Of a DNA stretch of 42,425 nt, positions 10,536 to 37,761 are shown one piece after another. The position numbers and the translations under genes are program-made. The notes under the pieces are model-generated. The model saw only the letters and a program-made list of their open reading frames with translations, searched no databases and was not told the origin of the DNA. Positions within the stretch are counted from its first letter, which is position 1. Each line of letters begins with the position of its first letter. Source of the DNA: a virus; the IMG/VR virus record IMGVR_UViG_3300033153_003124, positions 1-42,425 of that record; one strand, given 5' to 3'.

Positions 10536-11639
10536 TTAGTAAATTATTACTTGTTGCTTAAATGTATCTCCAGCTCCTTCGTACTTTACGAAGATTGCTG
10601 TTCTATATAATGGGAATCCAGATTCTGCTGTATTGACTGCTAGTCCTGGAGTTGAATTTCCTACTGTCCAAGTATGACTATGGTCATAAGTCGGTACTGT
10701 ATAAAATGGTGAAGTTCTATCAACAACTGTACTAGCACCATTACCATCTGTTGCACTATGATTGTGTCCTGTATTTCCAGTATGAGTATGTTGTGATGAA
10801 CCACCTGTATCTACTGCATCATCTGCTCTTAGGAACTTGCCATCTTGTAGAGTTACTCTTACCCAACCTGCTGGTATATCTACTACATCTCCATCAAAGA
10901 TTCCTATAAGTCCTACTGGTGTTTCTGCTCCTGCTGCTGTCGCTGCTATTAAATCTCTATAAGTAGGTGAGTCATTTCCATTATGGATATTTGAACTACT
11001 ACTTCCAAATGCTACCGAATGAGTATGTGCTTGTGCTGCTGTTGAACGAGATAAAAATACTGCACCTAGAAATGCTCTACCACCTGGATTACTTGTTGTA
11101 TTAGAATGGGTATGTGCTGTTGTATGTGTATGGTTATTTGAACTTCCACCACCATCTCCTGCATCTCCACCTGCTCCAACTCCTTTAAGAAACTTATTAT
11201 TAAGAGCTGCATAGTTTGACCAACCATCTGGTAATGCTTCATCAAATAAAGCTATCACTCCTGCTGGTACATCTTGGTCTGCTCCGCTTGGTGTTATATA
11301 AATTACTTCCCAATTAGGTGGTTCGTTAGCTGCTGTTCCTGATGCTGTTGTACTTGCGTTACTATTCTTACTTGCGTGAGGATGTGCTTCTATTGAAAAA
11401 GCTGTAGCTTTACTACCTATTGATGCTGTAGTCGTGTTTGTAGTTACATTTGATACAAATGTGTGAGTATGACTTACATGATTATGAGTATGTGTTGTGC
11501 TACCACCATCTGTTCCGCCATTAGCATCTGTTGCTGCTCCAAATACACACCTACCAGCAAACTGAGTACCTTCTTCCCATCCTGCAGGTATGTTCGCATT
11601 GTCATCATCAAAAGGGAGATATACTCCATTAGGAATCAT
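10536..11639 (-). CDS. Tail fibre with three collar-like, His-rich repeats
   Basis: This 367-residue protein consists of three repeats. Each contains a phrase like PAGWEEGTQFAGR, PDGWSNYAALNNKFLKG or PAGWVRVTLQDGKFLR, followed by a histidine cluster (THTHNHVSHTH, NHTHTTAHTH, QHTHTGNTGHNH). The PxGW...GxF signature is that of phage tail-collar domains, and HxH clusters in fibre tips such as T4 gp12 hold iron ions that stiffen a trimer. Each repeat also ends in a Y-R strand. It likely forms a receptor-binding or short fibre. It abuts the next fibre gene, sharing one base. Confidence 0.8.
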   Translation of the reverse strand: MIPNGVYLPFDDDNANIPAGWEEGTQFAGRCVFGAATDANGGTDGGSTTHTHNHVSHTHTFVSNVTTNTTTASIGSKATAFSIEAHPHASKNSNASTTASGTAANEPPNWEVIYITPSGADQDVPAGVIALFDEALPDGWSNYAALNNKFLKGVGAGGDAGDGGGSSNNHTHTTAHTHSNTTSNPGGRAFLGAVFLSRSTAAQAHTHSVAFGSSSSNIHNGNDSPTYRDLIAATAAGAETPVGLIGIFDGDVVDIPAGWVRVTLQDGKFLRADDAVDTGGSSQHTHTGNTGHNHSATDGNGASTVVDRTSPFYTVPTYDHSHTWTVGNSTPGLAVNTAESGFPLYRTAIFVKYEGAGDTFKQQVIIY

Positions 11640-13849
11640 TATGGTTTCTCACATTTAATTGTAACGGACAATCCATTCGGTGCTGTCGTAGAGTGAACGG
11701 CATCAATATCTATATATAAAGCATCTCCTGTAGCTAGGTCATCATTAGCTTCATTAACTACTCCATCTGAGGCAAACCATTCATCTCCTATTGTAACTTT
11801 AGTTGAGAGTACATCTACCTCAGCTCCTGCTCGTCTGCGTCTTACTTGAATATCAGTAGTATCATCTACTCCTTTATCATCTACTATTGCTGTTACATCG
11901 GTTATTTCATAACCATTCAAAGTTGCGTTAATAGGTATTGCAGTTAGTCCATCTATTACTGCTACTGCTACATCTGCTGCTACTAATGATTGAGCTACTG
12001 TTTTTGTTACTACAGTTGCTAAATCTACATCAGTATCTGCCATTGTAATTGTTCTGGTATTCCCTGTGGTAATTTGGTCTGCTTCAAAATCAATTATACT
12101 TGTAGGGTCGCCATCATCATATATGTGAAAGTTAGCATCACTAAATTCTGTTAAAGCAGTAGAACCTGCACCACCACCGATAGTTCCCATTGGAGAACCA
12201 GTTAAGGAATATACTTCAGCTCCTACTGGAGTGTGGTCGCCTGCTGTTTTCTTAAATGTAACTCTACATACTAGGAACGCTGTATTATTAAATTCTTGGT
12301 CTGCTGTTCTTACATCAAAGTTACTAGAATCTGATATTACTGCTGATTCAGAATTGTAAACTCCAGTTGGTAGATTTACAAACAGTTTAGATTGATTCCC
12401 TGTCTGGTCGCTTGATGCCATTGTAGCCCAGATAGTTATAGAGAAGTATTTATTAGTACCAATAGCATCTCCATTAGCCAATTCTGCTACATCATTCAGG
12501 TCATGTATATTTTCTAGTTTAGCAAAAGTTCCGATACCACTAGCATTAGCTACTGTAGCTCCATGTGTTACAACATTAAGTGCTGGAAAATCTTGTCTAT
12601 GTAATTGAAATACTACTCCTGCTGTTACTGACAAATTCATAGCAACACCATCATCTAATGTAGAAGCACAACCAGATACATATTTAGGTCCAAGCCATCT
12701 TAATTTCTCTCTCATATAAGATAGTTGTCCTCTACCATTATGCTTTACAGCTTCAGTAGTTCTTTGTAAGGATATTGGTCCATGTGAAGTAACTGTTGCT
12801 GCATCTTGTATTACAACTATTGAGTGCCAAGCAAATGTTCCAGTAGGTAGTGATGTACTAGCTGCTAAGGTTGCTACTCCAGCTCCATCAGGAATTACAT
12901 ATACATAGTTTATTTGAGGAGCAGTAGCTGTACCTACAGTTAAAGCAATCTGTGCCTTACCTGCTGTACCAGCTCCAGTAGTACAATCAAGTATGTGCTT
13001 TTCTTCATCAAAGACATAAGCTAAATTACCACCAGCTTCTCCACCTCCACCTGCAACATCTTCAGTTTCCATGTAAACAGCAGCACCATCAACTACTACA
13101 TTAAGTGCTTGTTGAAATGCTGATAATCCAGATAGAGGATAACTGATTCTGTTTACTACATTATCTCCAAGAAGTTCTAATCTATCTGCAGTTATTTTAC
13201 TGGCGTTCTGAACTTCATTACTGTTCATATCAATATTGCCAGCCATTGTGCCACCAGTTAGTTCTAAGTAATTTGCATCTCCCCAAGCATTTAATCCATG
13301 TATAAATTCAGGGTCAGGGAAATGAACTATGTTTACATATATTTCACCAGCACCATTATTAGACCTTTGAACATGACCTACTACTACTGGATGATAAGTG
13401 TCTGCATCTACTGGGGTATTTTGTACTCCACCTGCTACTGTTCCACTAAGGAATAATGTATCTCCTGCAGAAAATGTACTTGTATCTAAATCCCTAACTA
13501 TTCCTGCTGTATTTATATATCCTAAACTCCCACTATTTATATCTTCTGTTGCCATTCCTATAGCTCTGAATTGAGGTGAACCAGTTGCTATTGCTCTTGT
13601 TACTGTTACATTTGTTCCATCAGCACCATCTACATATACTACATCTCCATTTGAAATATTCTCACTTGCTTTAACTCTTAAAACAAACTCTTGTCCTACT
13701 TGTAGTTTTACAGTTCCACCTTTAAGTCCAACCTCTAAAGTTCCAGCATCATCATCCCAATGTAATCTACCTTCCTTGTGTCCAGGAGTTATATTGGTAT
13801 TGAAATCAATCCAAGGTTTATTTAATGATGAGTGAGACTTCTTTATCAT
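11639..13849 (-). CDS. Large tail fibre/virion protein
   Basis: The product is about 736 residues from ATG 13849, which has GGGAG upstream and overlaps the previous stop as ATGA (a TTG 18 bases earlier is also in frame). Early segments (VLRVKASENISNGDVVYVDG, and GDTLFLSG) resemble the small beta-barrel decoration domains found in phage fibres; the rest is Ala/Thr/Gly/Asp-rich beta structure. A repeat-like C-terminal part (DATTIDIQVRRRRAGAEVD region) precedes the end. It is one of a run of adhesin genes. Its specific binding role is unknown. Confidence 0.7.
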   Translation of the reverse strand: MIKKSHSSLNKPWIDFNTNITPGHKEGRLHWDDDAGTLEVGLKGGTVKLQVGQEFVLRVKASENISNGDVVYVDGADGTNVTVTRAIATGSPQFRAIGMATEDINSGSLGYINTAGIVRDLDTSTFSAGDTLFLSGTVAGGVQNTPVDADTYHPVVVGHVQRSNNGAGEIYVNIVHFPDPEFIHGLNAWGDANYLELTGGTMAGNIDMNSNEVQNASKITADRLELLGDNVVNRISYPLSGLSAFQQALNVVVDGAAVYMETEDVAGGGGEAGGNLAYVFDEEKHILDCTTGAGTAGKAQIALTVGTATAPQINYVYVIPDGAGVATLAASTSLPTGTFAWHSIVVIQDAATVTSHGPISLQRTTEAVKHNGRGQLSYMREKLRWLGPKYVSGCASTLDDGVAMNLSVTAGVVFQLHRQDFPALNVVTHGATVANASGIGTFAKLENIHDLNDVAELANGDAIGTNKYFSITIWATMASSDQTGNQSKLFVNLPTGVYNSESAVISDSSNFDVRTADQEFNNTAFLVCRVTFKKTAGDHTPVGAEVYSLTGSPMGTIGGGAGSTALTEFSDANFHIYDDGDPTSIIDFEADQITTGNTRTITMADTDVDLATVVTKTVAQSLVAADVAVAVIDGLTAIPINATLNGYEITDVTAIVDDKGVDDTTDIQVRRRRAGAEVDVLSTKVTIGDEWFASDGVVNEANDDLATGDALYIDIDAVHSTTAPNGLSVTIKCEKP

Positions 13850-14319
13850 AAGATAGCTCCCTTCCAAAAGTTCTGTGTTGCTGTATCTGATACTACATAT
13901 ACTGCGTTGTCTACATCATTGTAAGATAGTTCAACAGAATCTCCAGGTAATAGGAATGTTAAAGCATTAGAGCCATCATTAGCTACATTAGATTTACCTA
14001 CATATAGAGTGCCTTCATTATCATAATCTGCTGCTATAGTTATTGCCTGAGTTGTTCCTGTAAAGGTAGCTTCTACTGCTGTAGTTCCTACTGATACTTT
14101 ACCGCCACCTTCCATGTCTTTAGATTCAGTCATATCACCAGCAACTAGGTTCACATCCATAGCTGTTTTAGCACCAGTAACAGTACCTGTAACTCTACCA
14201 ACTGTAGAACCTACTACGGTTTCTACTTGTGGAGTAGTGTTCAGGGTAAGATAAGAACTATCCTGAGCTTCATTGTGGATTCTTTGTGATGTTTTTTCTG
14301 TTCTTGAACCTGTTGCCAT
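13846..14319 (-). CDS. Small beta-rich virion protein
   Basis: This 157-residue protein has a polar, charged N-terminus and then a Thr/Val/Gly-rich beta domain (VVGSTVGRVTGTVTGAKTAM). It ends by overlapping the large fibre gene. The strand pattern suggests a compact beta barrel or fibre accessory. No catalytic or metal motif is visible and no family is recognised. It lies in the middle of the adhesin block. Confidence 0.6.
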   Translation of the reverse strand: MATGSRTEKTSQRIHNEAQDSSYLTLNTTPQVETVVGSTVGRVTGTVTGAKTAMDVNLVAGDMTESKDMEGGGKVSVGTTAVEATFTGTTQAITIAADYDNEGTLYVGKSNVANDGSNALTFLLPGDSVELSYNDVDNAVYVVSDTATQNFWKGAIL

Positions 14320-14339: not shown

Positions 14340-15086
14340 TTATGTTTTAGCTATTAAATGTCCACTCCACATAGTAAGGTCTATTCTACCTTTCAATGTA
14401 GGACTACCAGCTGCACCCTCTAATACTTTTAGAGTAACTGTTTCACTTGCTGAAAGATGAACTGTTTGACTACCAGGGATACCTAAACCACTAGTACCAG
14501 AAGTGTGTTGGTTAGTTAGAAAAAATACACCAAGTGATGAACCAGTTAATGTAAATCCATAATAGTTCTGGTCAATAGTTGGACTATAATGAACCTTACA
14601 ATCAAAATGATAATATCCTGCATATGGAGCTGTAAATATCCCTGTTGTATTATTATAATTACTTCCTATATCATATATTTCTGTATTACATATAATAGTA
14701 TCACCACTATCAACAGTATCATCAGCACTATTATAAGCCCTAAATCCAACAAACCCACCCTCAGGATATAATTTATTACCATGTATCCCATCAACTGTAT
14801 CAGCATTTCCTGTAACAGATAGTGCTTGCATATAATCTACTCGTACTGATGCTCCAGTTGCAGGTGCAGTTACGAATGTAAATGTTCCTGCTCCTGGTGA
14901 AGTTTCATTAAAGTCATCTGTAGGAAACTTCCTTTGACCATTAAGCCACACTATAAGTGAACCACCAACATAAGCGTTAGCACAGGTATAGAGAGTGTTA
15001 GCAGAGTTCACTAAACCAGCAGGAGTTTCCGAGTGTGTCCACCCATTCATTCCGAAGTCTGTTCCTCTTGTAAATGATTGGCTCAT
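14340..15086 (-). CDS. Receptor-binding protein with C1q-like domain
   Basis: This 248-residue protein has an N-terminal fibre-type region with a WLNGQRKFPTDDFNET segment, typical of phage fibre attachment. A C-terminal domain of about 145 residues carries a C1q/TNF-like signature: FVGFRAY, then a Y-D-I-G-S-N-Y strand, GIFTAPYAGYYHF and a final Ile-Asp-Leu-rich strand. C1q-like heads form trimeric jelly rolls that bind proteins or acidic sugars. Here it probably forms the tip of a fibre. Confidence 0.75.
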   Translation of the reverse strand: MSQSFTRGTDFGMNGWTHSETPAGLVNSANTLYTCANAYVGGSLIVWLNGQRKFPTDDFNETSPGAGTFTFVTAPATGASVRVDYMQALSVTGNADTVDGIHGNKLYPEGGFVGFRAYNSADDTVDSGDTIICNTEIYDIGSNYNNTTGIFTAPYAGYYHFDCKVHYSPTIDQNYYGFTLTGSSLGVFFLTNQHTSGTSGLGIPGSQTVHLSASETVTLKVLEGAAGSPTLKGRIDLTMWSGHLIAKT

Positions 15087-16033
15087 GCTGTTCTACTTAA
15101 TAATCTTACTTCCATATATGTTCTTGCTATTCCAGTTTTAATATCAACACTATCTCTATTATCTGTTGGGTATGCTGCTCCTCTTATATCAATATCTACT
15201 CCAGCATCTAAATATTTTGTTACATTTGATGCTACGGATATTTGATACCCAGAAGTATCTTGACCATTTATACAATCATATTCACCAATAGCAGCACCAT
15301 CTGCATAAATATATATTATTAGTAAAGTCCAATTTGGGTCCCAAGTTCCAAATTCTGCTTGACCAGTAATCTGATAATAACCAGCATAAGGTGTAACAAA
15401 TTTACTATTTGCTAAATCATAGTTACTACCCACATCATAATCTTCTGTATCTAATAAAATTTTAGTAGTAGTATCGTGTGTGATATTAGATTGTTGTACT
15501 GCTAGATAAGCTCTTGCTCCAATAAAATCATTAACTGCAGTATAAGGTTTAGATATTAAATGTACAAAACCATAACTATTTTGATTAGCACTATATAAAT
15601 CTGGAGTATCTACTGCTGATGTTTGATATACTCCAAAATAAACTTTATCACCAGCACTCCAATAATTAACATCATTACAAGCAACTGTCATATTTTCAGT
15701 TCCACTAGGTGTATTTATCCCTAAAGCAACATCACTACTAGCTCCCTCATAATCACCATTAGAAATAACACAATAGTATCTTTGCTGGTCAACTACATTA
15801 CTCCATCTCAAATTTAGTCCAATATGATAATAGCCATCTTCTGGGATTGTATAATAACTATTTGCTCCACTGGTAAAATTACTACCAATATCATAATCTA
15901 CGCCATTAAAATCTACATTAGTTGTAGTATTTTTAACTATATTTAATTGATGACCATCTAAAAAAAATCTTGCACCTATAAAGTCTTTAGGTTTATAACT
16001 TGCTAATGCTGAATTTGTGTATCCTTGTGCCAT
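15083..16033 (-). CDS. Protein with two tandem C1q-like domains
   Basis: This 316-residue protein consists almost entirely of two C1q-like jelly-roll domains. The first (about residues 16-150) has FIGARFFLDG, VDYDIGSNF and YYTIPEDGYYHIGL. The second (about 168-315) has FIGARAYLAV, EDYDVGSNY and FVTPYAGYYQI. It overlaps both neighbours by a few bases. Such domains assemble as trimers and are likely host-recognition heads. The two domains are clearly related to each other and to those encoded on either side. Confidence 0.78.
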   Translation of the reverse strand: MAQGYTNSALASYKPKDFIGARFFLDGHQLNIVKNTTTNVDFNGVDYDIGSNFTSGANSYYTIPEDGYYHIGLNLRWSNVVDQQRYYCVISNGDYEGASSDVALGINTPSGTENMTVACNDVNYWSAGDKVYFGVYQTSAVDTPDLYSANQNSYGFVHLISKPYTAVNDFIGARAYLAVQQSNITHDTTTKILLDTEDYDVGSNYDLANSKFVTPYAGYYQITGQAEFGTWDPNWTLLIIYIYADGAAIGEYDCINGQDTSGYQISVASNVTKYLDAGVDIDIRGAAYPTDNRDSVDIKTGIARTYMEVRLLSRTA

Positions 16034-16515
16034 TATCCTGTCCTTCCTATTAAGTGAACATTCCAGAAATTATAATCATCATTAGCAAATAATGATACTG
16101 CAGCTCCTTGATTTTGTGTTATATCCATTGTAATAACATCACCCTCAGTAGCATAAAAATCTGCTGTTAATAATGAGTGTTGATATGATGACCTTGATAC
16201 ATCACTTTCATCACGAAAACCATTAACAATATTAGTACCATCTATTATCAATGATAGTAACATACGCTCTCCTGCTGCAAATGTTGCTGGAGCTAACATA
16301 GCGGCAGCATCTGTATGATAATATCCAGTAACTGGAACAGTAAATTCACCATTAGTAGCATTATAGTTATTATTACCAAATCCAACATCATACACTTGGT
16401 CCTCAAATATAATTGTAGTCCAAGTATTATTAGGTATTGATTGACCACTATCTGACCTTGCTCTAAATCCTACAAAGCCGAAGTTATCTTGTGGTGTTAA
16501 TAATGTTTCTGTCAT
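16033..16515 (-). CDS. Single C1q-like domain protein
   Basis: This 160-residue protein is one C1q-like domain with a short N-terminal lead: FVGFRARSDS, QVYDVGFGNNNYNATNGEFT and VPVTGYYHTDAAAML. It is the first of three consecutive genes (in transcription order) that give four such domains. It shares a single base with each neighbour. It is probably an adhesin head on the tail or capsid. Confidence 0.78.
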   Translation of the reverse strand: MTETLLTPQDNFGFVGFRARSDSGQSIPNNTWTTIIFEDQVYDVGFGNNNYNATNGEFTVPVTGYYHTDAAAMLAPATFAAGERMLLSLIIDGTNIVNGFRDESDVSRSSYQHSLLTADFYATEGDVITMDITQNQGAAVSLFANDDYNFWNVHLIGRTG

Positions 16516-16844
16516 TATGTAACCTCTGTTCCAGTAAGATTAAATGTTAAATCACCAAGTCCACAATATACCGATACGACATCAGTAGTAGCTAACGTTA
16601 TCCCTAGTGTTGCTGCGAATGTATCGTTAGCAGGTATTGCTACATCATAGTAAAGATAATGCTTGTTATCTATTCCTGCTCCACCAACTCTTAAAGCAAC
16701 TCTAAAAGTATCATTAACTGCTCCTCTATTACAAACAGTAAGTGTTGTTATTATTGATTCAGTAGCTCCTGGAACTGTGTAAAGAGTTTCCAAGGTTGTA
16801 GCTGCTGCGTCTAATTGTCCTAAGACTTTATATGCTTCTGCCAT
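16515..16844 (-). CDS. Small virion/fibre protein, unknown
   Basis: This 109-residue beta-rich protein has a hydrophilic N-terminus (MAEAYKVLGQLDAAATTLET) and alternating strands (SIITTLTVCNRGAVNDTFRV), with one cysteine pair. It resembles short phage proteins placed among fibre genes that may decorate the capsid or plug the tail. No family is firmly recognised. Confidence 0.6.
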   Translation of the reverse strand: MAEAYKVLGQLDAAATTLETLYTVPGATESIITTLTVCNRGAVNDTFRVALRVGGAGIDNKHYLYYDVAIPANDTFAATLGITLATTDVVSVYCGLGDLTFNLTGTEVT

Positions 16845-17005
16845 TATAGTTTTTTTAGTTCTTTAATATCATTATCAATAATATCAACTCTAGCCTGAAT
16901 AAGTGCTTTTCTTTCCTCTAGTTCTTCTATTGTTATATCAATAATACTTGCTTTAGTTTCTGTAATTGTATATTTATCTCCTATTTTTTCGTATGTTTTT
17001 GCCAT
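16844..17005 (-). CDS. Small coiled-coil protein
   Basis: I start this at ATG 17005, giving 53 residues (MAKTYEKIGDKYTITETKAS and a Glu/Lys-rich coiled coil ending KELKKL); a longer in-frame start lies inside the previous fibre gene. GGGAG precedes the ATG, and the start overlaps the previous stop as TAATG. It resembles small phage chaperone or attachment-helix proteins. Its function is unknown. Confidence 0.6.
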   Translation of the reverse strand: MAKTYEKIGDKYTITETKASIIDITIEELEERKALIQARVDIIDNDIKELKKL

Positions 17006-19170
17006 TATGCTCCCATTATTAAGAATGAATGTGCGAATCCCCCACCACCTGCTGAGGCATCTCCCCATGATAGGTTACCTGCACCATCTGTTTTAAGTGC
17101 TTGGTCTGCATCACCATCTTCATCTGGTAATATCCATATCTGGTCTGCTGCTAAGGCTGGTGCTTCAAATCCTACATAGTTAGCACCTTCATAGAATCTG
17201 AGTTCGTTATTAGAACCACCTACATATATACTACCATTAACTCTAAAGTATTGGTTAGCAACTGTTGCACTAAATATACCGTAGACTAATGAGTCTGTTC
17301 TTCCTGCTGCTTCACTAGCTCTATCTTGATTATCTATTATTAGTGTACTGCTACCTGTTTCATCCATTCCAGCAGCATATCCCAAGAACACACTACTTGC
17401 TCCAGTACAAGCATATCCTGAATACTGACCTATCGCTACATTATTTGAACCACTAGCATTTCTACCTGCTTGGTATCCTATTAAAACTGACCTTGTAACT
17501 CCTGTTGCACTACCTCCAGCTATACTACCTAGTAGTACATTATCATCACCAATAGTAGTATTACTTGTTCCACCACCTGCATTATGACCTACTAATACAT
17601 TATCATCTGCTCCATTTTCAATACCACCAGTACCATAACCAACCATTGTATTACGAGTACCAACAGTTATAGAATTACCAGCTTCTTTTCCTATAAAGAC
17701 ACTCTCATGTGCTTCAGTTGCTGCATCACCAGCACTATTACCAACTGCTGTATTACCAGCTCCAGTTGTTAGATTGTCTAAAGCTGTGTTCCCTACTCCT
17801 GTATTTGTTGTTCCAGTTAAAGTTCCATTACCAGCATTGTATCCAAAGAAGTCATTTAGATTAGTTATATCAATAGCTCTTGCTGCTCCAGTTAGAACCT
17901 GACCTCCTGAGATAGTCCATGTTCCATCTGTAAAAGCACCATCTATGGTTAGACCATTTGCTGTTATAGTAAAATTGCCTACATCCCAGTTAGCTGTAAG
18001 AGGAACAGTACCATCTGCTAATAGGTCTCCTCCACCACCGCCTCCTGCTGCAGCCCACTTTAAGCCACTAGCTTCACCTGAGTCTGCTGTTAAAACCTGA
18101 GTATCTGCTCCAACTGATAGTATTACTGGTGTATCATCAGCACTTGCTGAGAGTATGTCTCCTTTAGCATTAAAATCTTCTTCCATAACTGCACCTGCTG
18201 AAGCTACATTAGTAGCATCTGTTACATCAGCACCATCTTCTACATTTATATCAGACCTAACTTCTGTCATGTCTCTACCCTCTAAACCACCACCTGCTGC
18301 GAATCTAGCATAATCTGCTACTCCTACAAAACCATCATTTACTGTTACTATATGGTTATTTAGTGAACTATGTTGTATTTGATGTTGGTGGTCTGCTCTA
18401 GCTAGATAGTCTGAAGTACCCTCTGCAGCTGCTTGTACACCTACTAATTCCTCTGGACTAGCACATGTTAGTGCATCTCCACCAGTCTGTGGTGCGTGTG
18501 ATGCTGCGTGTGCTTGTGGTGCATTACTGCCAGTTACATCTGCTCCGTCTGCTACGTTAATATCTGAACGTACTTCTGAGTATGAACGACCCTCTACTCC
18601 ATCTGCTGTAAATTTAGCATAATCATTATCAATAATGTCAGCTACATCAGCTATAATTATTTGGTTAAGTCCTATACCTACGTCTGCATCTATTGTTACA
18701 GCACCATCTATTGTTCCACCACCAGTTAAACCAACACCTGCTGTTATTGTTATAATAGAATGGTCTGAATGTTGGTTAGCATCATAGTTAGCAAGAGCAT
18801 TATGGTCTATATTACCTTCATTTACTGTTAGCTCTACATCATGAGTAGCTCCATCTAAAGCTACTGTAAGTCTGTTATTCTCACTCTTAATGGCATTGAA
18901 CTCTAAGTCTACACCTGTCTTTTGATAATAAAGTGATATACCACCACCAGAACTAGATGCTGTATTGGTCTCTCCTCCGCCTCCTCCACCACCAGCCCAG
19001 CTAATGTCAGTACCGTCTGTGAATAGATATTCACCAGCATGACCAGTTTGGTCTGGCGTAAGTACATTAACCACATTCTGTATAGCTACTAATTCTAAGT
19101 CTACCTGACCACCATCAGGGGGAGACCCACTATAAAAAGAGTGCGATTTATTGTACCTATAATTTGCCAT
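17005..19170 (-). CDS. Tail fibre with YadA-like head repeats
   Basis: This 721-residue protein has an N-terminal region rich in Gly/Asp, then middle repeats of about 90 residues built around Asp/His phrases (DYAKFTADGVEGRSYSEVRS and DYARFAAGGGLEGRDMTEVR are near copies). From about residue 450 it carries GxNxxxG-type turns (TNTGVGNTALDNLTTGAGNT, VTRSVLIGYQAGRNASGSNN). This is the left-handed roll pattern of YadA-like trimeric adhesin heads, in which each turn buries hydrophobic residues. A receptor-binding trimer is likely. It ends one base into the next gene. Confidence 0.78.
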   Translation of the reverse strand: MANYRYNKSHSFYSGSPPDGGQVDLELVAIQNVVNVLTPDQTGHAGEYLFTDGTDISWAGGGGGGGETNTASSSGGGISLYYQKTGVDLEFNAIKSENNRLTVALDGATHDVELTVNEGNIDHNALANYDANQHSDHSIITITAGVGLTGGGTIDGAVTIDADVGIGLNQIIIADVADIIDNDYAKFTADGVEGRSYSEVRSDINVADGADVTGSNAPQAHAASHAPQTGGDALTCASPEELVGVQAAAEGTSDYLARADHQHQIQHSSLNNHIVTVNDGFVGVADYARFAAGGGLEGRDMTEVRSDINVEDGADVTDATNVASAGAVMEEDFNAKGDILSASADDTPVILSVGADTQVLTADSGEASGLKWAAAGGGGGGDLLADGTVPLTANWDVGNFTITANGLTIDGAFTDGTWTISGGQVLTGAARAIDITNLNDFFGYNAGNGTLTGTTNTGVGNTALDNLTTGAGNTAVGNSAGDAATEAHESVFIGKEAGNSITVGTRNTMVGYGTGGIENGADDNVLVGHNAGGGTSNTTIGDDNVLLGSIAGGSATGVTRSVLIGYQAGRNASGSNNVAIGQYSGYACTGASSVFLGYAAGMDETGSSTLIIDNQDRASEAAGRTDSLVYGIFSATVANQYFRVNGSIYVGGSNNELRFYEGANYVGFEAPALAADQIWILPDEDGDADQALKTDGAGNLSWGDASAGGGGFAHSFLIMGA

Positions 19171-22770: not shown

Positions 22771-23300
22771 TATTTTAATTCGTTAATTTGTTCTTGTATT
22801 TGTTTACTTCTTTCACGATACAGCTTTTGTACTCGTAGAAGTCTTATCCCCTTATTTAATAGTTCTAAAGCTCTGAGATTCTCCAAGTTCTCATTAACTC
22901 CTAGATTTGTCTTTAATTCTGTGAGAATATCCATATACCCCTCTGGGGTATCCTTCCATTCTCTTGATTTCATTTCCTCTAGTATAAAATTGTCTACCTC
23001 TGCTAGTTCTCTACCTATCTCTAACTGTCTAATCTCTGTACTACCCATGTCGAATACTCTAGCTATATAAGGTCTTGCTGTTCCTGAAAATGCAGACGGT
23101 CCTAACCCCTCCTCTGCTTCTAAGTCTATTCCATCTGATGTAGAGAAACTAACATCTCTGTCTATTACTGATGGACTACTTTCTGAAACCTCCTGTGAGG
23201 TATCTGTCGAATAGCGTACGCCAGTTTCCGATGTTTCTCTCGATGGAGAACTCGTCTCTGATACGTTCTCTGGAGTTTTCGACAAGTCGTTTTCCGTCAT
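22770..23300 (-). CDS. Ser/Thr-rich protein with helical C-terminus
   Basis: The 176-residue frame begins at ATG 23300, inside the previous sugar-enzyme gene, overlapping it by 125 bases. The first 75 residues are very Ser/Thr/Glu-rich (SETSSPSRETSETGVRYSTD) and the rest is helical (LEIGRELAEVDNFILEEMKS). An ATG at 23051 would avoid the overlap but leave a non-coding gap; neither start has a strong ribosome binding site. It may be a virion accessory protein. No family is recognised. Confidence 0.5.
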   Translation of the reverse strand: MTENDLSKTPENVSETSSPSRETSETGVRYSTDTSQEVSESSPSVIDRDVSFSTSDGIDLEAEEGLGPSAFSGTARPYIARVFDMGSTEIRQLEIGRELAEVDNFILEEMKSREWKDTPEGYMDILTELKTNLGVNENLENLRALELLNKGIRLLRVQKLYRERSKQIQEQINELK

Positions 23301-24273
23301 TAGGGTTATTCAATAAATGGTTTATGTTATATACCCAGTTCTCTTTGTATACATCCACACCATCTCTTAGTCCTTTATATGGTCCAATGTCAGATACAAT
23401 CGTTGGTATATTTGTCATCGTGTACTCGAACCATTTAACTAGAGAGCGTGCTTCATTAAACTGTGAGTCTATTAGAGGTGCTAGACCTACGTCATATCCT
23501 TGGTCTGCTAGTAGTCTTGGGAATGTCATATCATTATTAGGATTACCAGCCCACCAAGATAGTGCTGGCTTTATCTCCCAATTCTTCCTAGGTACTTTCC
23601 TTAAATGCTTTGGTAACATGTGTCCTACGAAAGAGAATACTACGTCTGGATTGGTCTGTATTACTTTAGTATAGTGCTTATCCATTACTGGATGGTCGAC
23701 TATGTGTGAACCTGACCCAGCCCATCCTACTGTCTTTCGCATGTGTGTTCTATTTGTCCACTTCCAATCATCCATATCGCAGGAGTTTGGGAGTAGGTAA
23801 ACATTCTTGTTGTACTTCTTGTAAACTTTTACTAATTCTGGTGTAGATACTGTGATTGCTGTAGTCTCCTTTAATAGAGTCTCTATGTAGTGTCTCATCT
23901 CAGAACCTTTTTTATATACAAACGCATCTGGGTTCTTCCCATCATAGGCGAATACATTATCATCAAAATCTATTATCAAGGGTTTGTCGTAGTAATCACA
24001 AGCTCCTAATAACATATAGATTGTTGAGGGATTATCTAGGTGTTTTGTATATACTAAGTTGTGTGTTTCCACCATTTCTACAATAACTTTCTCAAAATTC
24101 TCTGGTGGAGTGTTCGCTAATCGCCCTCCAACGTGGTTAAATGTGTACTCTGGGAGGTGTTTTGCCACCATTCTTTGCCTATAATAACCAACACCACCGT
24201 ATAAACCTAGCTTTTTAGCTATATCTGACCCAAATTGGGTGTTTATTGTTAGTATTTTGAGCTTATTGAGCAA
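23176..24273 (-). CDS. GT4-like glycosyltransferase
   Basis: This 365-residue protein has the two-lobed GT-B layout. The N-terminal lobe has a GLYGGVGYYRQRM loop near residue 25, which holds a sugar donor in this family. IIDFDDNVFAYDGKN follows, then PNSCDMDDWKW and a C-terminal lobe with TVGWAGSGSH, YDVGLAPLIDSQFNEARS and KWFEYTMTNIPTIVSD. The usual E-x7-E is represented by the FNEARSLVKWFEY segment. It should move a sugar from a nucleotide donor. It is a paralogue of the next gene and overlaps it by 11 bases. Confidence 0.85.
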   Translation of the reverse strand: MLNKLKILTINTQFGSDIAKKLGLYGGVGYYRQRMVAKHLPEYTFNHVGGRLANTPPENFEKVIVEMVETHNLVYTKHLDNPSTIYMLLGACDYYDKPLIIDFDDNVFAYDGKNPDAFVYKKGSEMRHYIETLLKETTAITVSTPELVKVYKKYNKNVYLLPNSCDMDDWKWTNRTHMRKTVGWAGSGSHIVDHPVMDKHYTKVIQTNPDVVFSFVGHMLPKHLRKVPRKNWEIKPALSWWAGNPNNDMTFPRLLADQGYDVGLAPLIDSQFNEARSLVKWFEYTMTNIPTIVSDIGPYKGLRDGVDVYKENWVYNINHLLNNPNDGKRLVENSRERIRDEFSIERNIGNWRTLFDRYLTGGFRK

Positions 24274-25405
24274 AACCTTGTCCTATATATTTACTTAATA
24301 CCTTATCCCACTTCTTCCAATGACTCTTCCATTGGTGGTTTCTTTTAACCTCATCGTATGCGTGTTGACCTATACGGTCTCTTTCGTGTTTGCTATCAAC
24401 TAAATGTGATATAGCATCTACCCATTCCTTTTGATTCTTTGCCAGTAATCCTGTCAGTCCGTGTTTAATTTTCCTCTTATATGGTCCGAAGTTGGATGCT
24501 ACTGTTGGTATCTTATACATAGCATATTCCATCCACTTACCATGTCCTTTACCATCGTTGAACTTTGATTCCTTTAATGGAGCTAGTCCTATGTCGAAAG
24601 CCCATGAGGCTAATCGTTGATGGAAGTCTCTCATTGTTCTTGTTCCAGAGAATACTGCGTATGCTTCTTTAGGTAGACTCTTGAACTTGATGTCTAGCCC
24701 TCCACATACAGCGAAGATTACTTTATCGCCATACTTATCCCATATCTCTTTCATTACTGGTTCTAATACTTCTAAGTCTGCTTCATGTGTCTGTGATGCT
24801 GTCCAACCTATGATTATCTTCCCATCAGGTCTTTTAGGCTTCTCAAAATCCCAGTCATTAACATCATTATAGTTTGATATAACATGTACATTTGGATTGT
24901 ATTCTTTGTATACTTTTTTTAGTGGTTCAGTTGATACTATTATTGCTGTTGCTGATTTGAATAGTTCCTCATGCACAACCTGTGCCATCTCTCCCTCTTT
25001 GAAGTATTTTCTATTTGGATTCAACTCATCTACTGATAGGTAGTCATCATCCATGTCTAGTATTAAGGGTTTATCGTAGAAGTCTGCTGCACCCATGAAC
25101 TGTGCTAAGGCTGCTGGATGAGATACGTTCTTCATTAAGACTATATCTGTATCCTTTATAAGGTTTGGTATAATCTCATTTATACTCCAATCCTTATTAA
25201 CCTCTTTTATGTTCTTCTGTAGTGTTGTGAAATCACCAAACTCTACCACGTCATACTTCTGGCGTAGGTATTGCATTGGTTTCTGTATACGATAATATCC
25301 GACTCCTCCTATAAAGTCTGTTCCCTTTGGTCCTAATCCATTCCAGTCATTACGGAACGCTAGGATTCTAGGTCTATGTAATACTGGTTTCTTCTTCATG
25401 CTCAT
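24263..25405 (-). CDS. GT4-like glycosyltransferase (paralogue)
   Basis: The product is about 380 residues from ATG 25405. It shares the blocks of its neighbour: FIGGVGYYRIQKPMQYLRQK near residue 35, LILDMDDDYL, then IIGWTASQTHEADLEVLEPV and FDIGLAPLKESKFNDGKGHG followed by KWMEYAMYKIPTVASNF. These are GT-B (GT4) signatures. The E-x7-E position is degenerate (ESKFNDGKGHGKWMEY). Two close copies side by side suggest duplication with divergence in sugar specificity. It overlaps the upstream gene by 32 bases. Confidence 0.85.
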   Translation of the reverse strand: MSMKKKPVLHRPRILAFRNDWNGLGPKGTDFIGGVGYYRIQKPMQYLRQKYDVVEFGDFTTLQKNIKEVNKDWSINEIIPNLIKDTDIVLMKNVSHPAALAQFMGAADFYDKPLILDMDDDYLSVDELNPNRKYFKEGEMAQVVHEELFKSATAIIVSTEPLKKVYKEYNPNVHVISNYNDVNDWDFEKPKRPDGKIIIGWTASQTHEADLEVLEPVMKEIWDKYGDKVIFAVCGGLDIKFKSLPKEAYAVFSGTRTMRDFHQRLASWAFDIGLAPLKESKFNDGKGHGKWMEYAMYKIPTVASNFGPYKRKIKHGLTGLLAKNQKEWVDAISHLVDSKHERDRIGQHAYDEVKRNHQWKSHWKKWDKVLSKYIGQGFAQ

Positions 25406-26351
25406 CAAATATATTTACTGGTTTATGTTTCTCTTTCTTATACTTGTCTGATAGGTCGCTGATTATAGATGTGATGCTTCTAACAGGTGTATCTGTTTCT
25501 GGGTCTCCAGCATCCTCCAATAATCTCTCTCTAGCTTCTTGTTTCATTAGATTAGGATTATCCATAGCTTTCTTTATTGCTTTGGCTAAACCATCTCTCT
25601 CACAAGCTATTGAACCTTTACCTGGCAGAGTGTCCTCTACTCCTTGCCATGTTCCTTCTAGTTCTTTATGTTTGAATCCTTTAACGTGTACTACTGGTAT
25701 TCCTAATGCGTGAGCAAATAGTTCCATTGTACTTTCCATCATACAGACTACTACTGATGCTCTCTTAATGAGGTCAAAGGTAGCTTCTATATGTCCAGGT
25801 TCATCTCTGTATGTTAAACATTGTTCTCCTATATAGTTCTTCTGGTTCTGGTCTGATGGAGTAATCATCTTAGCTACTGGTCTAATTCCTTCTATTTTCT
25901 TTAATGCAGCCCAAGTTCTCTTTGATTCCATAGTATCTATGTTCCAATGAGGTACATCGTATACTACTAATCCTTTTTCTTCTTGTCTTTCTGGTATGTA
26001 AGTGAACCAAGGCGCTCCTACTCTGAATACTCTTGTTGGATGCCACTTACCTTCTATAGCATCTTCATAGTCTTTCATTCCCCAGACGAAACAAGCTAGT
26101 GATGTAGGTTCTCCTACATGTGTCCAATAATCTCTCATAGCTCTACGACCATGTTGTACCACAAATGTTGGTACACCATTCTGTAAGGCTGTTGCACATA
26201 TCATCTTGTAATCGTTTGGATAGTCTGTCCAAGTGATTAGACAGTCTGGTTTCTTTTTCTTATCAGCGATGTCAGTTAGCTCTGCTTCTTCAAATGTTGA
26301 ATACAGAGGTGTGTTTATATCGTTGAAGTTTAATATTACTGCTTTCTTCAT
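25374..26351 (-). CDS. GT-B-fold sugar enzyme, function uncertain
   Basis: This 325-residue protein contains FVVQHGRRAMRDYW, then FVWGMKDYEDAIEGKW and VVVCMMESTMELFAHALGIP. The Q-H-G motif, the W-G-x-x-D segment and the E-S-T-M-E loop before G-I-P resemble UDP-sugar 2-epimerases, CDP-glycerol or capsule transferases, and PseG-type hydrolases, all of which share the GT-B fold. Context (beside two glycosyltransferases, with a nonulosonic acid cluster elsewhere in the operon) suggests glycan transfer or a missing pathway step. The ATGA overlap with the previous gene indicates coupling. Confidence 0.6.
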   Translation of the reverse strand: MKKAVILNFNDINTPLYSTFEEAELTDIADKKKKPDCLITWTDYPNDYKMICATALQNGVPTFVVQHGRRAMRDYWTHVGEPTSLACFVWGMKDYEDAIEGKWHPTRVFRVGAPWFTYIPERQEEKGLVVYDVPHWNIDTMESKRTWAALKKIEGIRPVAKMITPSDQNQKNYIGEQCLTYRDEPGHIEATFDLIKRASVVVCMMESTMELFAHALGIPVVHVKGFKHKELEGTWQGVEDTLPGKGSIACERDGLAKAIKKAMDNPNLMKQEARERLLEDAGDPETDTPVRSITSIISDLSDKYKKEKHKPVNIFDEHEEETSIT

Positions 26352-31499: not shown

Positions 31500-32902
31500 T
31501 GTTTTTTCTTAAATCCAAAGTATGTATTATTTTTCTTAGCATAGTGTCCTTCCCCTCCGACTACCTCTTCCTTGTCATACCAGTTTCTTTTAGATTTCTC
31601 TAAGTCTGGTAACAAGTCCATTTCCCAACATCCTATAGCTCTAGCAATAACACAATCATCGTGTTTGTTAGCTGGTGCTGAAAATTGGTATCTGCCAGAT
31701 GGTAGACGGTTGAATGAGAAGTCTCTCATCTCTGCCATCGCTACTACGTCTGGTAGTAATCTAATATCTAAATTGTCTATCTTAATAGACATGTTTGTAA
31801 TAAGACGCTCTTTCATTTGAGCAGTCTTGATTGGAGTAATATCTATACCTTTGTGTCTAAAGTGGTCTCCAATAATCATACCTAGTCCAGATTCATCCAT
31901 GTATATATCAGCGTTGTTATACTTCCTATACAGAGCTTCTAGTCTAGCTTCTCCTAAAGCTGAATCCATAGGTTGAAATCTATCTATGTAAACTTCGTGT
32001 CCTGTGTGCATATCCCATACTGAGTTCACCCAGTAATCGTGAGTGATAGCAGGGTCGCAACCAATTCTATATACTCTTCCTGGTTCTGGTTCTCTTTCTT
32101 TTAGCTCTTCACCGAAATCATCTATAACAACTTGGTCTAGCTTTCTAAACACTTGGTTTGAATCACTATTAAAGCTACATAGGTATTCCTGTGTGTATGC
32201 AGGTCCTATACCATCCGCTTCATAATCTTTTCTAATATTCTTTAACTGCTCATCACCAAATAGTCTACTGCCATCAAAATCTTTTGATTCTGTAGCTGGT
32301 AGTATTCTTGACCACCATTGTGGTCTATCTGGGTCTTGTCCTGCTGTGTATGCTTCATGTAGATGCTTGATTCCTCTAGGTGTTCCTGAGAGAACTGCTG
32401 CACCTCCGTTAGCTTCTATAATAGGTCTAACGATTTCTGAGAATACTCTTTTCTGTTGGTCATCATATTCATCTATAATATAGAGTCTACCATTACCTCC
32501 TCTATGTTTATCTGGGTTCTCATCTGTACCATCAAATATCATTTGCCAACCAGACTTGAATGTTATTACCATCCTCTGGTCATCTTTCTTCTTCACCTGA
32601 GACATAGGTAGCAGTAAAGGCAGAATACCTGGGTTATCCCAAATATGCTCTCTTATCTTCTTCTGTTGTGGATACAGATAATATACTTGTCCTGGGTTAG
32701 GTGCTGATGAACAGACCTTTATACAGGCATTAACAAGTTCAGTTGATTTGCCAGACCTACGATGGTCTACTGGTACTAGATACTGTGGTCCTTTACCAGT
32801 TGCTAGACGTTTCCATACTTTATCAGCTAGTTCTTTCTGATGAGGTCTTTGTTCGTAATCAACGACTTCGTATACTTTTCCATCTATTTTGACCTTCTTC
32901 AT
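31496..32902 (-). CDS. terL: Terminase large subunit
   Basis: This 468-residue protein has an N-terminal packaging ATPase: Walker A HRRSGKST at 48-54, Walker B RLYIIDE at 139-145 and a coupling SGT at 172-174. A C-terminal RNase-H-like nuclease domain follows, with IGCDPAITHDYW at 280-291 (metal ligand Asp283), YMDESG and a final DDCVIARAIG. It pumps DNA into the head and cuts it. It is followed by the portal gene. Unusually, the sugar cluster separates it from the small subunit gene about 5.5 kb away. Confidence 0.95.
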   Translation of the reverse strand: MKKVKIDGKVYEVVDYEQRPHQKELADKVWKRLATGKGPQYLVPVDHRRSGKSTELVNACIKVCSSAPNPGQVYYLYPQQKKIREHIWDNPGILPLLLPMSQVKKKDDQRMVITFKSGWQMIFDGTDENPDKHRGGNGRLYIIDEYDDQQKRVFSEIVRPIIEANGGAAVLSGTPRGIKHLHEAYTAGQDPDRPQWWSRILPATESKDFDGSRLFGDEQLKNIRKDYEADGIGPAYTQEYLCSFNSDSNQVFRKLDQVVIDDFGEELKEREPEPGRVYRIGCDPAITHDYWVNSVWDMHTGHEVYIDRFQPMDSALGEARLEALYRKYNNADIYMDESGLGMIIGDHFRHKGIDITPIKTAQMKERLITNMSIKIDNLDIRLLPDVVAMAEMRDFSFNRLPSGRYQFSAPANKHDDCVIARAIGCWEMDLLPDLEKSKRNWYDKEEVVGGEGHYAKKNNTYFGFKKKQ

Positions 32903-33891
32903 TTAAGTTTCCATTGTCCATTAACGTCTTGTTCTACTAAATCTCTGTTAGCATGTTTAGATACAACTCCGTCAAAGTAATCTTCTGTTATTCCTATTGT
33001 CTTACAGAAATCTCTCTTAGCTTGTGGGTCGCACTTCCAATCTCTCTCCTTTATATAGGCTAGGGATTGTTCTAGTGTTAGGAGTCCATCTCTAACGTAG
33101 CGTGATGCTATATCAGATACTCTCTGGAATCCGAACTTCACAAACTTAGTCCATAGCTGAATAATATATGCTATAGAATCTTGTTGAGTATAGTTTTCAA
33201 TGTTTCCTTGTCTAAGCCATTCTCCTGTATCATCTAAATCTATGAACCCATGTTTCTTAGCAAACTCTCTATTCCCTTGTTCTGAGTAGGGATAGAAGGC
33301 AAAGAAGAATAGTATCATCACTTCACCATCACTCTTCTCGTGTAGGTAGTCTAGTTTATGTCTTGTACCGTATTGGAACGCTGAGTTCTCTCCGAAGAAT
33401 ACTAATGGTATACCAAACTTCCTTGCTATGTTTGTTGGTACATCATATATCTTTTCCTCTACCCATTTAAGTGGATGGAGGGTTTCTTCAAAGTCCTTCT
33501 TTGTCTCCTCAATAAATGTCTTTGGTTCACAACGCCATGTTATGTGGTCGCAGTTAAACCTCTCTGCGATATTTTTTGCGTTGTGTTCTCCTGCCTTCGT
33601 GTGCGTAAACTCGTCTGTTACGGTTACAAGGAGGCATTTCATCTTGTACTTCTCTACAAGGTTTGCAACGATTACAGTTGAGTCTTTTCCTCCAGAAACT
33701 GCCACGACGCAATCGTAATCTCCATTTTGTGATTTTCTTTTTTCGCATATTGTTCTTAAATCCTTTTCTCTTTTAGCCCAGTCAAATGTCTTGGCTTTCT
33801 CATGGTTAATACAAGCTAGACACACACCATCTTTATCTTTGGTGAGTGGTCTTGTTTTTAGTGGGAATCCACATTTACTACATCTCTCCAT
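32899..33891 (-). CDS. N-acetyl sugar amidotransferase (PseA/WbpG-like)
   Basis: This 330-residue protein begins with a zinc knuckle (Cys4, Cys7, Cys24, Cys27) followed by a PP-loop ATPase motif SGGKDS at 66-71. These proteins adenylate an N-acetyl sugar and replace the acetyl oxygen with nitrogen, making acetamidino groups on pseudaminic or legionaminic acid and related sugars (PseA, WbpG). Cellular versions take ammonia from a HisH-like glutaminase, which is absent here. AAGGAGG precedes the start and the stop overlaps terL. It is the last sugar-cluster gene before the packaging genes. Confidence 0.85.
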   Translation of the reverse strand: MERCSKCGFPLKTRPLTKDKDGVCLACINHEKAKTFDWAKREKDLRTICEKRKSQNGDYDCVVAVSGGKDSTVIVANLVEKYKMKCLLVTVTDEFTHTKAGEHNAKNIAERFNCDHITWRCEPKTFIEETKKDFEETLHPLKWVEEKIYDVPTNIARKFGIPLVFFGENSAFQYGTRHKLDYLHEKSDGEVMILFFFAFYPYSEQGNREFAKKHGFIDLDDTGEWLRQGNIENYTQQDSIAYIIQLWTKFVKFGFQRVSDIASRYVRDGLLTLEQSLAYIKERDWKCDPQAKRDFCKTIGITEDYFDGVVSKHANRDLVEQDVNGQWKLK

Positions 33892-34487
33892 TAGTCCTCC
33901 TTGTATAATCTATAAGCCATTGTCTTTTCCATTGGGAACTCTTTGTCTGCAAATAACTCAAATTCACTATGTTTAATTCCACCTATGTTAGCCCATTCGT
34001 TCATCCAATCTCTTTGCCAGAGATATGTTCCTTCTCCTCTATAGTCTACTGCTTCTGTACCAAAATATTCCCAACCCATAATAATAGATTTGGAAACTCT
34101 TAATATTTCACTCATTACCTTCTTGATGTTTCTGTTTCCTATATGGATTAGTAACCCATTAGTCATTACTACATCAAAGAAGTTATCATCAAACGGTAAG
34201 TTTGTAGCTGACGACCTTATGATAGTCGCTGGTACAGTCGCCTTTTCAATAGCGAAACTGTTAATATCTACACCATATAGGTCGCCCTTGCCTTCTAGCA
34301 TTTCTAACTGAAGTCCTCTGTTGCATCCGACCTCCAGTAGTGTATCAAACTCTCCTATATATTTTCTGTTAATCTCAGAACGAGTTATTCCCCACTTCTC
34401 TTTATAAAACTTATCTAGGTTCATGTTGTTACGGTCTGTGTATTCGTTACCGAATTTACCTGACCAAAACTTTTCTTCTCTATTCAT
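33891..34487 (-). CDS. Pseudaminic acid biosynthesis-associated methyltransferase
   Basis: This 198-residue protein opens with EEKFWSGKFGNEYTDRN, the typical start of the methylases found in pseudaminic acid clusters, then has SAM-binding motif I LEVGCNRG at 51-58 and a following GVD (72-74). It should transfer a methyl group from S-adenosylmethionine to a sugar, or to an as yet unknown group in Pse pathways. GGAGGG precedes the start. Gene order, overlapping cytidylyltransferase and amidotransferase genes, supports the call. Confidence 0.88.
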   Translation of the reverse strand: MNREEKFWSGKFGNEYTDRNNMNLDKFYKEKWGITRSEINRKYIGEFDTLLEVGCNRGLQLEMLEGKGDLYGVDINSFAIEKATVPATIIRSSATNLPFDDNFFDVVMTNGLLIHIGNRNIKKVMSEILRVSKSIIMGWEYFGTEAVDYRGEGTYLWQRDWMNEWANIGGIKHSEFELFADKEFPMEKTMAYRLYKED

Positions 34488-34972
34488 AATTTTCCCTCCG
34501 CTTTATCCCAATCAACTTGGGTGTTTATATCGACTGCTCCCTCTACTGGGAACAAGAATCTTCTTTTTCCTCTAACAAAGTAGAACTGTCCTGCGTCTTG
34601 GAATGTTGGTGGGTTCTCTGTGAGTGTAGTTACTGACCAGACATCATTATCATATTTACTAGCTTCCATTAAATCTTCACGCTTAGTGAGTGGATTCGGT
34701 AGTAGGCAACAAAGTGGTTTAGGAAACATTTTCCATACATCTAGTAATACTTGGTAGTCGTCTACCTTTGGTCTACGGTGTATAGATGCTCCTTCTTCTT
34801 CTGCTATTCTCTCAATCTCATCATCATCTGTTGAAACTATAACCTTTTCAAATAGACCAGTAGACTTAGCTAGTCTAACCGAATAGACGAATAGGGGTAT
34901 ACCCTTCATCTTCTTCTTATTCTTTCCAGGGATTCGCTTACTTCCTCCCCTCGCTGGAATGACTGCTATCAT
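34484..34972 (-). CDS. CMP-nonulosonic acid cytidylyltransferase, compact (PseF/NeuA type)
   Basis: This 162-residue enzyme links CMP to a nonulosonic acid. Visible motifs: IPARGGSKRIPGKN at 5-18 (CTP binding), STDDDEIE at 47-54, DAGQFYF at 126-132 and DINTQVDWDKAE at 148-159. Cellular PseF and NeuA enzymes are about 220-235 residues, so roughly 60 residues are missing, mainly between residues 65 and 120 and around the sugar-binding lid. The nucleotide and metal motifs are intact. It overlaps the acetyltransferase gene by 35 bases. Confidence 0.88.
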   Translation of the reverse strand: MIAVIPARGGSKRIPGKNKKKMKGIPLFVYSVRLAKSTGLFEKVIVSTDDDEIERIAEEEGASIHRRPKVDDYQVLLDVWKMFPKPLCCLLPNPLTKREDLMEASKYDNDVWSVTTLTENPPTFQDAGQFYFVRGKRRFLFPVEGAVDINTQVDWDKAEGKL

Positions 34973-35354
34973 ATTTGTATGTGTATTGAATTAGTTTGAA
35001 ACCTCGCTTCTGAAAGAAGTGCTGTGATACTAGATTCTTTGGAGCTATATTGGCTAACAGGTCTTTATTCATTTTTATTACTTCTTCTAAAGCCTCACCT
35101 CCATAATTCTTTCCTTGGCAATCCTCCTTGATTGCAATTCCTACTTCGTTCTGGTTGGTTACATATATTCTTCCAACTCTCTTATCCTCATCCATAATCA
35201 CCCAGTTGTCTTTGTATGGTTGAGCATTATTAAACTCTACATGTTCTCCCCAATGCGGTACTTTAATGTGGGAGATATTCTGTTCAGGTTTCTTTTCCTT
35301 TAACAGTTCATATAGGAAATGATAGTCTTTTGGTGTTACTCTACGGAGAAGCAT
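34938..35354 (-). CDS. GNAT N-acetyltransferase (PseH-like)
   Basis: This 138-residue protein has a GNAT fold: MLLRRVTPKDYHFLYELLKE at the start, beta strands through VGIAI at 71-75, then the CoA-binding QGKNYGGEAL at 80-89 and a C-terminal FFQKRGFKLI typical of GNATs. In Pse pathways PseH adds the second acetyl group at C4. At 138 residues it is shorter than typical PseH (about 170-180). It overlaps both neighbours. The assignment uses context as well as motifs. Confidence 0.8.
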   Translation of the reverse strand: MLLRRVTPKDYHFLYELLKEKKPEQNISHIKVPHWGEHVEFNNAQPYKDNWVIMDEDKRVGRIYVTNQNEVGIAIKEDCQGKNYGGEALEEVIKMNKDLLANIAPKNLVSQHFFQKRGFKLIQYTYKYDSSHSSEGRK

Positions 35355-35947
35355 GATTTTGTCGATAAGTCTGGATAATCGTCATTTGGTAGTGGTTGGT
35401 TCACTTCTGGGAGAAAACTAAGTCGTGAGAGACCCTCTGCGGCATCTCTAGGTATCATGTGGCATTGATGACCTATAATATCAAAGTCATCTTCCTGTGG
35501 TGTTAAGCCCTCAGTTCGCCCATTAAATCTAGCTTTTCTAAGCCATACATCAGCTTCATCATCATCGTGAAGGATTGCTCCTCCAGTTCCTAGTGCTAGG
35601 GTTTTCTTCCAATGAAATGACAAGCATATAAATTGACCAGGCATATACATATCACTAGACATGAATCTAGCTGAATCCCAAATAGGATATGGTTCTAACT
35701 GGTATAGTCCTTCCCACTCTTCATCTGTAAAGTGTACTCTGCCACCTGCATTTATAACTGACATAGCTGGAGACATGTAGTTGTACTTAGGCATTGATAC
35801 TTCTTTACCTTCTACTTGGTGGTACTTTAGGGATAATAAAAGTGCGTTGGTACATGAATTGGTTGTAACAGCGTATTTCGCTCCAGTATAATTACATAGC
35901 TCCTCCTCAAAATCTTTGACTATTTGGTATGGGTCTGACTCTCGCAT
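35336..35947 (-). CDS. DegT-type aminotransferase, compact (PseC-like)
   Basis: Starting at ATG 35947 (AAAGGAGGAAAC just upstream; a longer in-frame start lies 30 bases earlier), the product is 203 residues, about half the length of normal PseC (about 380). The PLP-binding core is present: TNSCTNALLLSL at 29-40, IWDSAR at 89-94 (Asp91 for the pyridine ring) and SFHWKKTLALGTGGAIL at 110-126 with Lys115 (or Lys114) for the Schiff base. The usual C-terminal small domain is missing. It would aminate the 4-keto sugar made by PseB; whether such a short form works is unknown. Confidence 0.8.
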   Translation of the reverse strand: MRESDPYQIVKDFEEELCNYTGAKYAVTTNSCTNALLLSLKYHQVEGKEVSMPKYNYMSPAMSVINAGGRVHFTDEEWEGLYQLEPYPIWDSARFMSSDMYMPGQFICLSFHWKKTLALGTGGAILHDDDEADVWLRKARFNGRTEGLTPQEDDFDIIGHQCHMIPRDAAEGLSRLSFLPEVNQPLPNDDYPDLSTKSCFSVE

Positions 35948-36057
35948 GTTTCCTCCTTTATAGCTTCTGCTGGACAATTCTCTAGTAGAGTTTGTTCATC
36001 ATCCTCTACATCACAAAGTCCACAGTTTATACATTTATCTTTATCTATTTTAAGCAT
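35920..36057 (-). CDS. Mini-ferredoxin (single 4Fe-4S cluster type)
   Basis: This 45-residue frame is easily missed. It reads MLKIDKDKCINCGLCDVEDD then EQTLLENCPAEAIK. Cys9, Cys12, Cys15 and Cys28-Pro29 give the ligand pattern C-x2-C-x2-C...C-P for one 4Fe-4S cluster. It overlaps PseB by 13 bases and PseC by 28 bases, with GAGG and AAAGG before its start. It would carry electrons. No redox enzyme is known in the Pse pathway, so its partner is unclear. Confidence 0.75.
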   Translation of the reverse strand: MLKIDKDKCINCGLCDVEDDEQTLLENCPAEAIKEETCESQTHTK

Positions 36058-37602: not shown

Positions 37603-37761
37603 CTAAATAGTATTAGCTCCAGATATTTTATCTCTGGTCTTATTATTAGGTTTATCGTCTACTTTATCGATACACCATTTACAATAGTAGACATCTTTAC
37701 CATCTTTCTTTCTTATGGTGAATGAACCTCCACCTTCTTTACATTCCTCGCAATATATCAT
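37603..37761 (-). CDS. Small zinc-ribbon protein
   Basis: A 52-residue frame begins MIYCEECKEGGGSFTIRKKD and has a second pair CKWC near residue 27. The two CxxC motifs form a zinc ribbon. It starts within the stop of the Phd-like gene (ATGA) and ends three bases before PseI. Small zinc ribbons of this type are common in this genome. Its function is unknown. Confidence 0.65.
   Translation of the reverse strand: MIYCEECKEGGGSFTIRKKDGKDVYYCKWCIDKVDDKPNNKTRDKISGANTI

Follow-up and report, generated by a model that had tools for sequence, protein, structure and literature searches.

Four C1q-like heads in three consecutive genes of a phage tail-fibre block: candidate receptor-binding tips

Why would a phage devote three consecutive genes to four unlike versions of a C1q-like head, and what might such heads do? 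The question is raised by positions 14340-16515 of a 42,425-base virus record (IMG/VR IMGVR_UViG_3300033153_003124), which was analysed whole and is referred to as the window. It carries terminase, capsid and tail-type phage genes, mostly on the minus strand, and has a 36-base direct repeat at both ends, so that it may represent a complete phage genome. The three genes, here termed A, B and C, had been pointed out in a first-pass annotation, whose coordinates, strand (minus) and gene count were correct, and they sit inside a tail-fibre block midway in the tail module (Table 1). Neighbouring genes overlap by TAATG (109-aa gene/A and A/B) or ATGA (B/C), the usual sign of coupled translation, suggesting that the 109-aa gene, A, B and C are translated in step. 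The reading favoured here, to which we assign a probability of roughly three in four, is that A-C encode receptor-binding (adhesin) heads carried on the virion of a tailed phage.

Table 1. Genes and domains of the C1q-like array, its neighbours and the sugar cassette of the window.
Feature	Coordinates	Strand	Description
721-aa fibre/spike-like protein	17005..19170	-	phrog_6002 virion structural 1.8e-11; phrog_4636 tail spike 3.7e-8
Upstream coupled 109-aa gene	16515..16844	-	tail-fibre-related; phrog_1276 9.8e-8; phrog_11338 (tail fiber) 1.6e-4
Gene A	16033..16515	-	160 aa; single C1q-like head is nearly the whole protein (~), leader ~12 residues
Gene B	15083-16033	-	316 aa; two C1q-like heads, B1 and B2
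Gene B, head B1	15539..16033	-	aa 1-165; leave-window-out HMM 9.3e-23; jelly-roll strands in AlphaFold2 model
Gene B, head B2	15083..15538	-	aa 166-316; leave-window-out HMM 1.1e-25; AlphaFold2 model
Gene C	14340-15086	-	248 aa; C1q-like head at C-terminal end
Gene C, N-terminal domain	14766..15086	-	aa 1-107; probable virion adaptor; tblastn to Cellulophaga phages
Gene C, head	14340..14765	-	aa 108-248; Pfam C1q 1.6e-8; leave-window-out HMM 1.0e-25
Downstream 157-aa gene	13846..14319	-	C-terminal ~95 aa found again near fibre-like genes of other phages
742-aa fibre-like protein	11639..13867	-	weak Phage_cement_2 Pfam match only
367-aa repeated collar-type tail protein	10536..11639	-	phrog_5795 tail 1.1e-12; 34% identity in G002
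Nonulosonic-acid-type cassette	34484-37600		224-aa NeuB match, 295-aa Polysacc_synt_2 epimerase/dehydratase, 213-aa DegT aminotransferase, GNAT acetyltransferase, 162-aa cytidylyltransferase

The array itself is real by several measures. The four domains (A, B1, B2 and C) can be aligned over ~150 residues, with F14, G16, R18, Y42, D43, G45, N50, P61, G64, Y65, Y66, G93 and L155 (numbering of A) invariant. The motifs FxG[FA]R, YD[VI]G and PxxGYY occur in all four, so that the FxGxR-type and YD-type signatures and the PxxGYY core of the first-pass annotation hold, whereas the full GxFTxPxxGYY, also claimed for every copy, is exact in A and C only and reads SYYTIPEDGYY in B1 and SKFVTPYAGYY in B2. 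A profile HMM trained on 41 C1q-like domains, all from other phages and none from the window, was significant for exactly these four domains among the 138 window ORFs taken into the profile search (5.2e-28 for A; other i-Evalues in Table 1), and matched nothing in 20 shuffles per ORF; the 41 domains had originally been collected in searches with window sequences, so this result establishes a shared family and not a blind discovery. Unlike the HMM, the match of C to Pfam C1q (PF00386) is wholly independent evidence, at 35.3 bits against a cut-off of 23.7, which A (20.3 bits) and B (19.1 bits) do not reach. On sequence grounds, A, B1, B2 and C belong to one phage C1q-like family, of which they are indeed four different copies, C being 28%, B2 26% and B1 24% identical to A. 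The domain tree places B1 and B2 on one side and A and C on the other, on long branches, and AU tests gave p values of 0.11 for a grouping of all four, 0.46 for B1 with B2 and 0.29 for A with C; a single origin was not rejected. A recent duplication in place was checked against the 24-28% identity to A and the scatter of the heads in the tree, yet the branches are long.

Structure prediction bears out the jelly roll for A and, less confidently, for B. The AlphaFold2 model of A (22 relatives in the alignment) has ten strands (pLDDT 88.8, pTM 0.82), and its best Foldseek match in the PDB is the central spike of Staphylococcus phage phi812 (knob/petal, PDB 9eul/9euf; 3.2e-9), followed by C1QL1, C1QL3, C1QL2, EDA, Caprin-2, cerebellin-1 and C1q. 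TM-scores to gC1q, normalised by target, reach 0.85, while identity in the structural alignments to animal heads is mostly 11-20%. The phi812 spike also gave a weak profile match (0.0029), and it differs from the window in that its head lies within a large spike protein, whereas A is a small separate protein; profile matches to a single-chain cerebellin-1 construct (4.8e-24) and to C1q-related factor (6e-9) were stronger. Among predicted viral proteins, the structural neighbours of A include a variable tail fibre protein of a Phormidium phage, many C1q domain proteins from uncultured Caudovirales phages and others named virion component. The model of B (pLDDT 71, pTM 0.48) shows jelly-roll strands in both halves and a TMt of about 0.8 to gC1q heads, at a confidence below that of the A model. 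Sequence and models thus support a C1q/TNF-type jelly roll for the heads, the fold class that they would have in common with animal gC1q heads (C1QL1-3, cerebellin-1, C1q) and TNF-like EDA. In contrast to the animal proteins, no collagen-like Gly-X-Y repeats were found in the translations of A, B and C, which would therefore be globular-head-only or adaptor-head proteins.

The surroundings of the array point to the tail, as the matches of the flanking genes to tail and spike PHROGs confirm, and A itself matches a virion structural family (phrog_13989, 2.2e-6). The 721-aa protein additionally contains GxNTAVGxxAG-form repeats resembling the head repeats of trimeric adhesins. On the other side of the array, the C-terminal ~95 residues of the 157-aa gene recur at 47% identity in L031/G004, 61% in L050 and 55% in L051, once adjoining a C1q-tipped fibre, and a scan of IMG/VR with the 742-aa protein found no relative. 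Residues 24-130 of gene C are 38% identical to tail/structural proteins of the Cellulophaga phages phi14:2 and phi4:1 (tblastn, E 8e-5 to 1e-4), from which its N-terminal domain is probably a virion adaptor; A and B have short leaders only, with no recognisable stalk or anchor.

Related heads recur in other phages. Scans of IMG/VR and phage records with an alignment, A1, and a closer set, A6, returned many C1q-bearing contigs, and 21 records, the window included and several of them fragments, were searched whole for C1q-like heads. Each holds one to four: the window, G008, G016 and Pelagibacter phage HTVC115P reach four and G009 has three, so the array itself, with three or four such genes also in HTVC115P and other contigs, is not unique. 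The domain lies at or near the protein C-terminus in these relatives, behind very different N-terminal parts, and the arrangement of a C-terminal head on a tail-fibre-block protein also holds for the window, B being exceptional in having two. The single head of G005 carries an inserted stretch that splits the profile match; the head in L034 (3949-6612) is broken by an insert into two partial matches within one 888-aa protein. In HTVC115P (L027, 4908-9426), the consecutive genes gp57-gp59 and the nearby gp64, all annotated as hypothetical, each end in a C1q-like head, that of gp57 scoring above the Pfam C1q cut-off; the likeness to the window lies in the run of three consecutive genes with the same C1q-like domain at the end, and the difference in one head per protein, longer leaders and no close identity to the window heads. 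When bacterial genomes were scanned, a single locus, L045, came up; its C1q-like head is 28% identical, and no further gene of the 12 kb compared is shared. This locus, from a bacterial MAG bin, combines tail and tape-measure-like genes with a C1q-tipped gene of 182 aa, which comes after two genes of similar size with the same type of leader; it is probably a prophage or a binned phage.

The literature gives these heads a likely task. In the variable islands of marine phages, few recognisable genes are as frequent as those for C1q-like proteins, which are read as receptor-binding proteins (PMC3909814), and cryoconite phage variants have them in variable host-recognition islands (PMC7468147). 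The window array is of a kind described in the marine phages (PMC3909814), with the same siting near tail-fibre genes and a block that varies between relatives; the available text of both papers describes the genes singly, whereas the three coupled genes of the window encode four heads, two of which share a chain. In corynephage CL31, changes in Clg55, which has a C1q-like C-terminus, were linked to better adsorption (PMC9671496). By analogy with these reports, the window heads would bind receptors (PMC3909814; PMC7468147; PMC9671496).

Variation of the block can be followed in one related phage, a contig of 33.4 kb (G002) with 83% identity in the capsid protein, 58% in the terminase, 48% in a 644-aa protein at the portal position, 42-65% in tail proteins and 50-64% in glycosyltransferases. 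The latter are two adjacent related genes near the capsid genes of the window (23176-25408, phrog_7162), conserved in G002, that could glycosylate the virion or the host surface. No C1q-like head was detected anywhere in G002 with the A1 profile, and the slot between its 591-aa tail protein and 294-aa gene is occupied by genes of 181 and 306 aa, unrelated to the block of the window, and by a 101-aa ORF. Later tail genes are present in G002, so a broken contig end was rejected as the cause of the absence. The tail-fibre block with its C1q heads thus appears to be exchanged between related phages, as judged from this one relative. Among the few contigs retrieved with the capsid, terminase, 742-aa and 157-aa proteins, there were no strain variants across the C1q genes, and a contig 100% identical to the window (L021) ends at window position 18884, short of them.

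The double-headed chain looks like the one unusual feature of the array: among the 21 records searched whole, two complete heads in one chain were found in B of the window only. In L016 and L037, neighbouring heads are encoded by two genes, with an intervening stop and leader; purely to align B, each of these in-frame pairs was translated across its single TAG stop. A missed stop was considered as the sole explanation of B and rejected as insufficient, because its heads are joined by a linker of just ~7 residues (PYTAVND) in place of a stop and a leader. Chains with more than one C1q head are otherwise seen in secreted animal proteins such as CTRP4, with two, and mussel HcC1qDC6, with three (PMC5519582), whereas B is from a phage. 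In Foldseek searches of B, engineered single-chain trimers ranked first, both heads being aligned in order over ~310 columns; the TM-scores of 0.34-0.38 and an rmsd of about 12 A mean that their packing is not reproduced (pTM 0.48). Coupled translation might bring the double head of B together with the single head of A, so that three heads (A, B1 and B2), each presenting a different face, would form one unit with an asymmetric tip, a natural counterpart of the engineered single-chain C1q/cerebellin trimers, but we regard this as a speculative and rather improbable arrangement.

With receptor binding as the function, the parts would fit together as follows. Each head would fold as a jelly roll and act as a trimer, as in the C1q/TNF superfamily, with its outer loops contacting the host surface, both features being modelled on known C1q/TNF structures. 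The N-terminal adaptor of gene C would fix this protein to the virion; A and B, the latter double-headed, would be produced in step and join neighbouring fibre proteins, so that A-C would all be virion proteins. Several unlike heads would offer a wider, or future-proofed, set of surfaces that the phage could grip, and the whole block could be swapped between related phages. C1q/TNF-type jelly rolls can also serve as trimerisation modules, and the heads might accordingly be structural, decorating the virion or capping short fibres with no direct part in receptor choice. That A and B are little more than bare heads without stalks, and that A matches a virion structural family, would suit such a role, yet a gene for capsid decoration should lie close to the capsid genes, and the low identity between copies, the C-terminal placement and the block replacement in G002 fit receptor binding better; we consider a purely structural role unlikely. 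The placement in the tail-fibre block argues in the same direction, and a receptor-binding tip, as proposed in the first-pass annotation, is the best function for the heads, binding as such being inferred. A presence in the virion is likewise deduced, and A and B have no obvious anchors, so that A-C might instead be released and mask receptors of infected cells or act between phages. This is hardly credible, given that no signal peptides are seen by eye in A-C and that the genes lie midway in the tail module, coupled to tail-type genes.

A more specific proposal was that the heads recognise nonulosonic acids, sialic-acid-like sugars that the phage itself can make. The window does hold a compact cassette of this type, several ORFs of which fall short of the lengths expected from the Pfam models, and some invertebrate C1q proteins are lectins, such as the LacNAc-specific OXYL (PMC6409975). 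However, G002 has the cassette genes at 54% (NeuB), 59% (aminotransferase), 47% (epimerase) and 53% (acetyltransferase) identity and is a C1q-less phage, while NeuB was found in none of the other 20 C1q-bearing records (three complete phage genomes and several fragments among them). NeuB and the C1q heads thus do not appear to travel together in the sampled records, which weakens the link. These C1q-like domains have no known ligand signature, so their ligand cannot be inferred from sequence, and the cassette may equally serve to glycosylate the virion or the host surface. The proposal is not supported by this co-occurrence pattern, and we hold it to be very unlikely. Next to the cassette lie a 330-aa PP-loop/asparagine-synthase-like protein (32899-33891; 68% identity in G002), which might act as a sugar-modifying amidotransferase, and a 100-aa ORF (37758-38060) with a stretch, MREFNSNISSHLNNLPIILTKRGTKVATI, that resembles Phd/YefM-type antitoxins by eye only.

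These findings speak against a link between the heads and the nonulosonic-acid genes that the phage itself carries, and they make the array a clear multi-head case within a poorly characterised class of receptor-binding genes of phages. A mixed trimer of A and B, if true, would be an unusual route to an asymmetric receptor-binding tip. Unannotated head arrays are also present in the cultured Pelagibacter phage HTVC115P, where the role of such heads would be testable.
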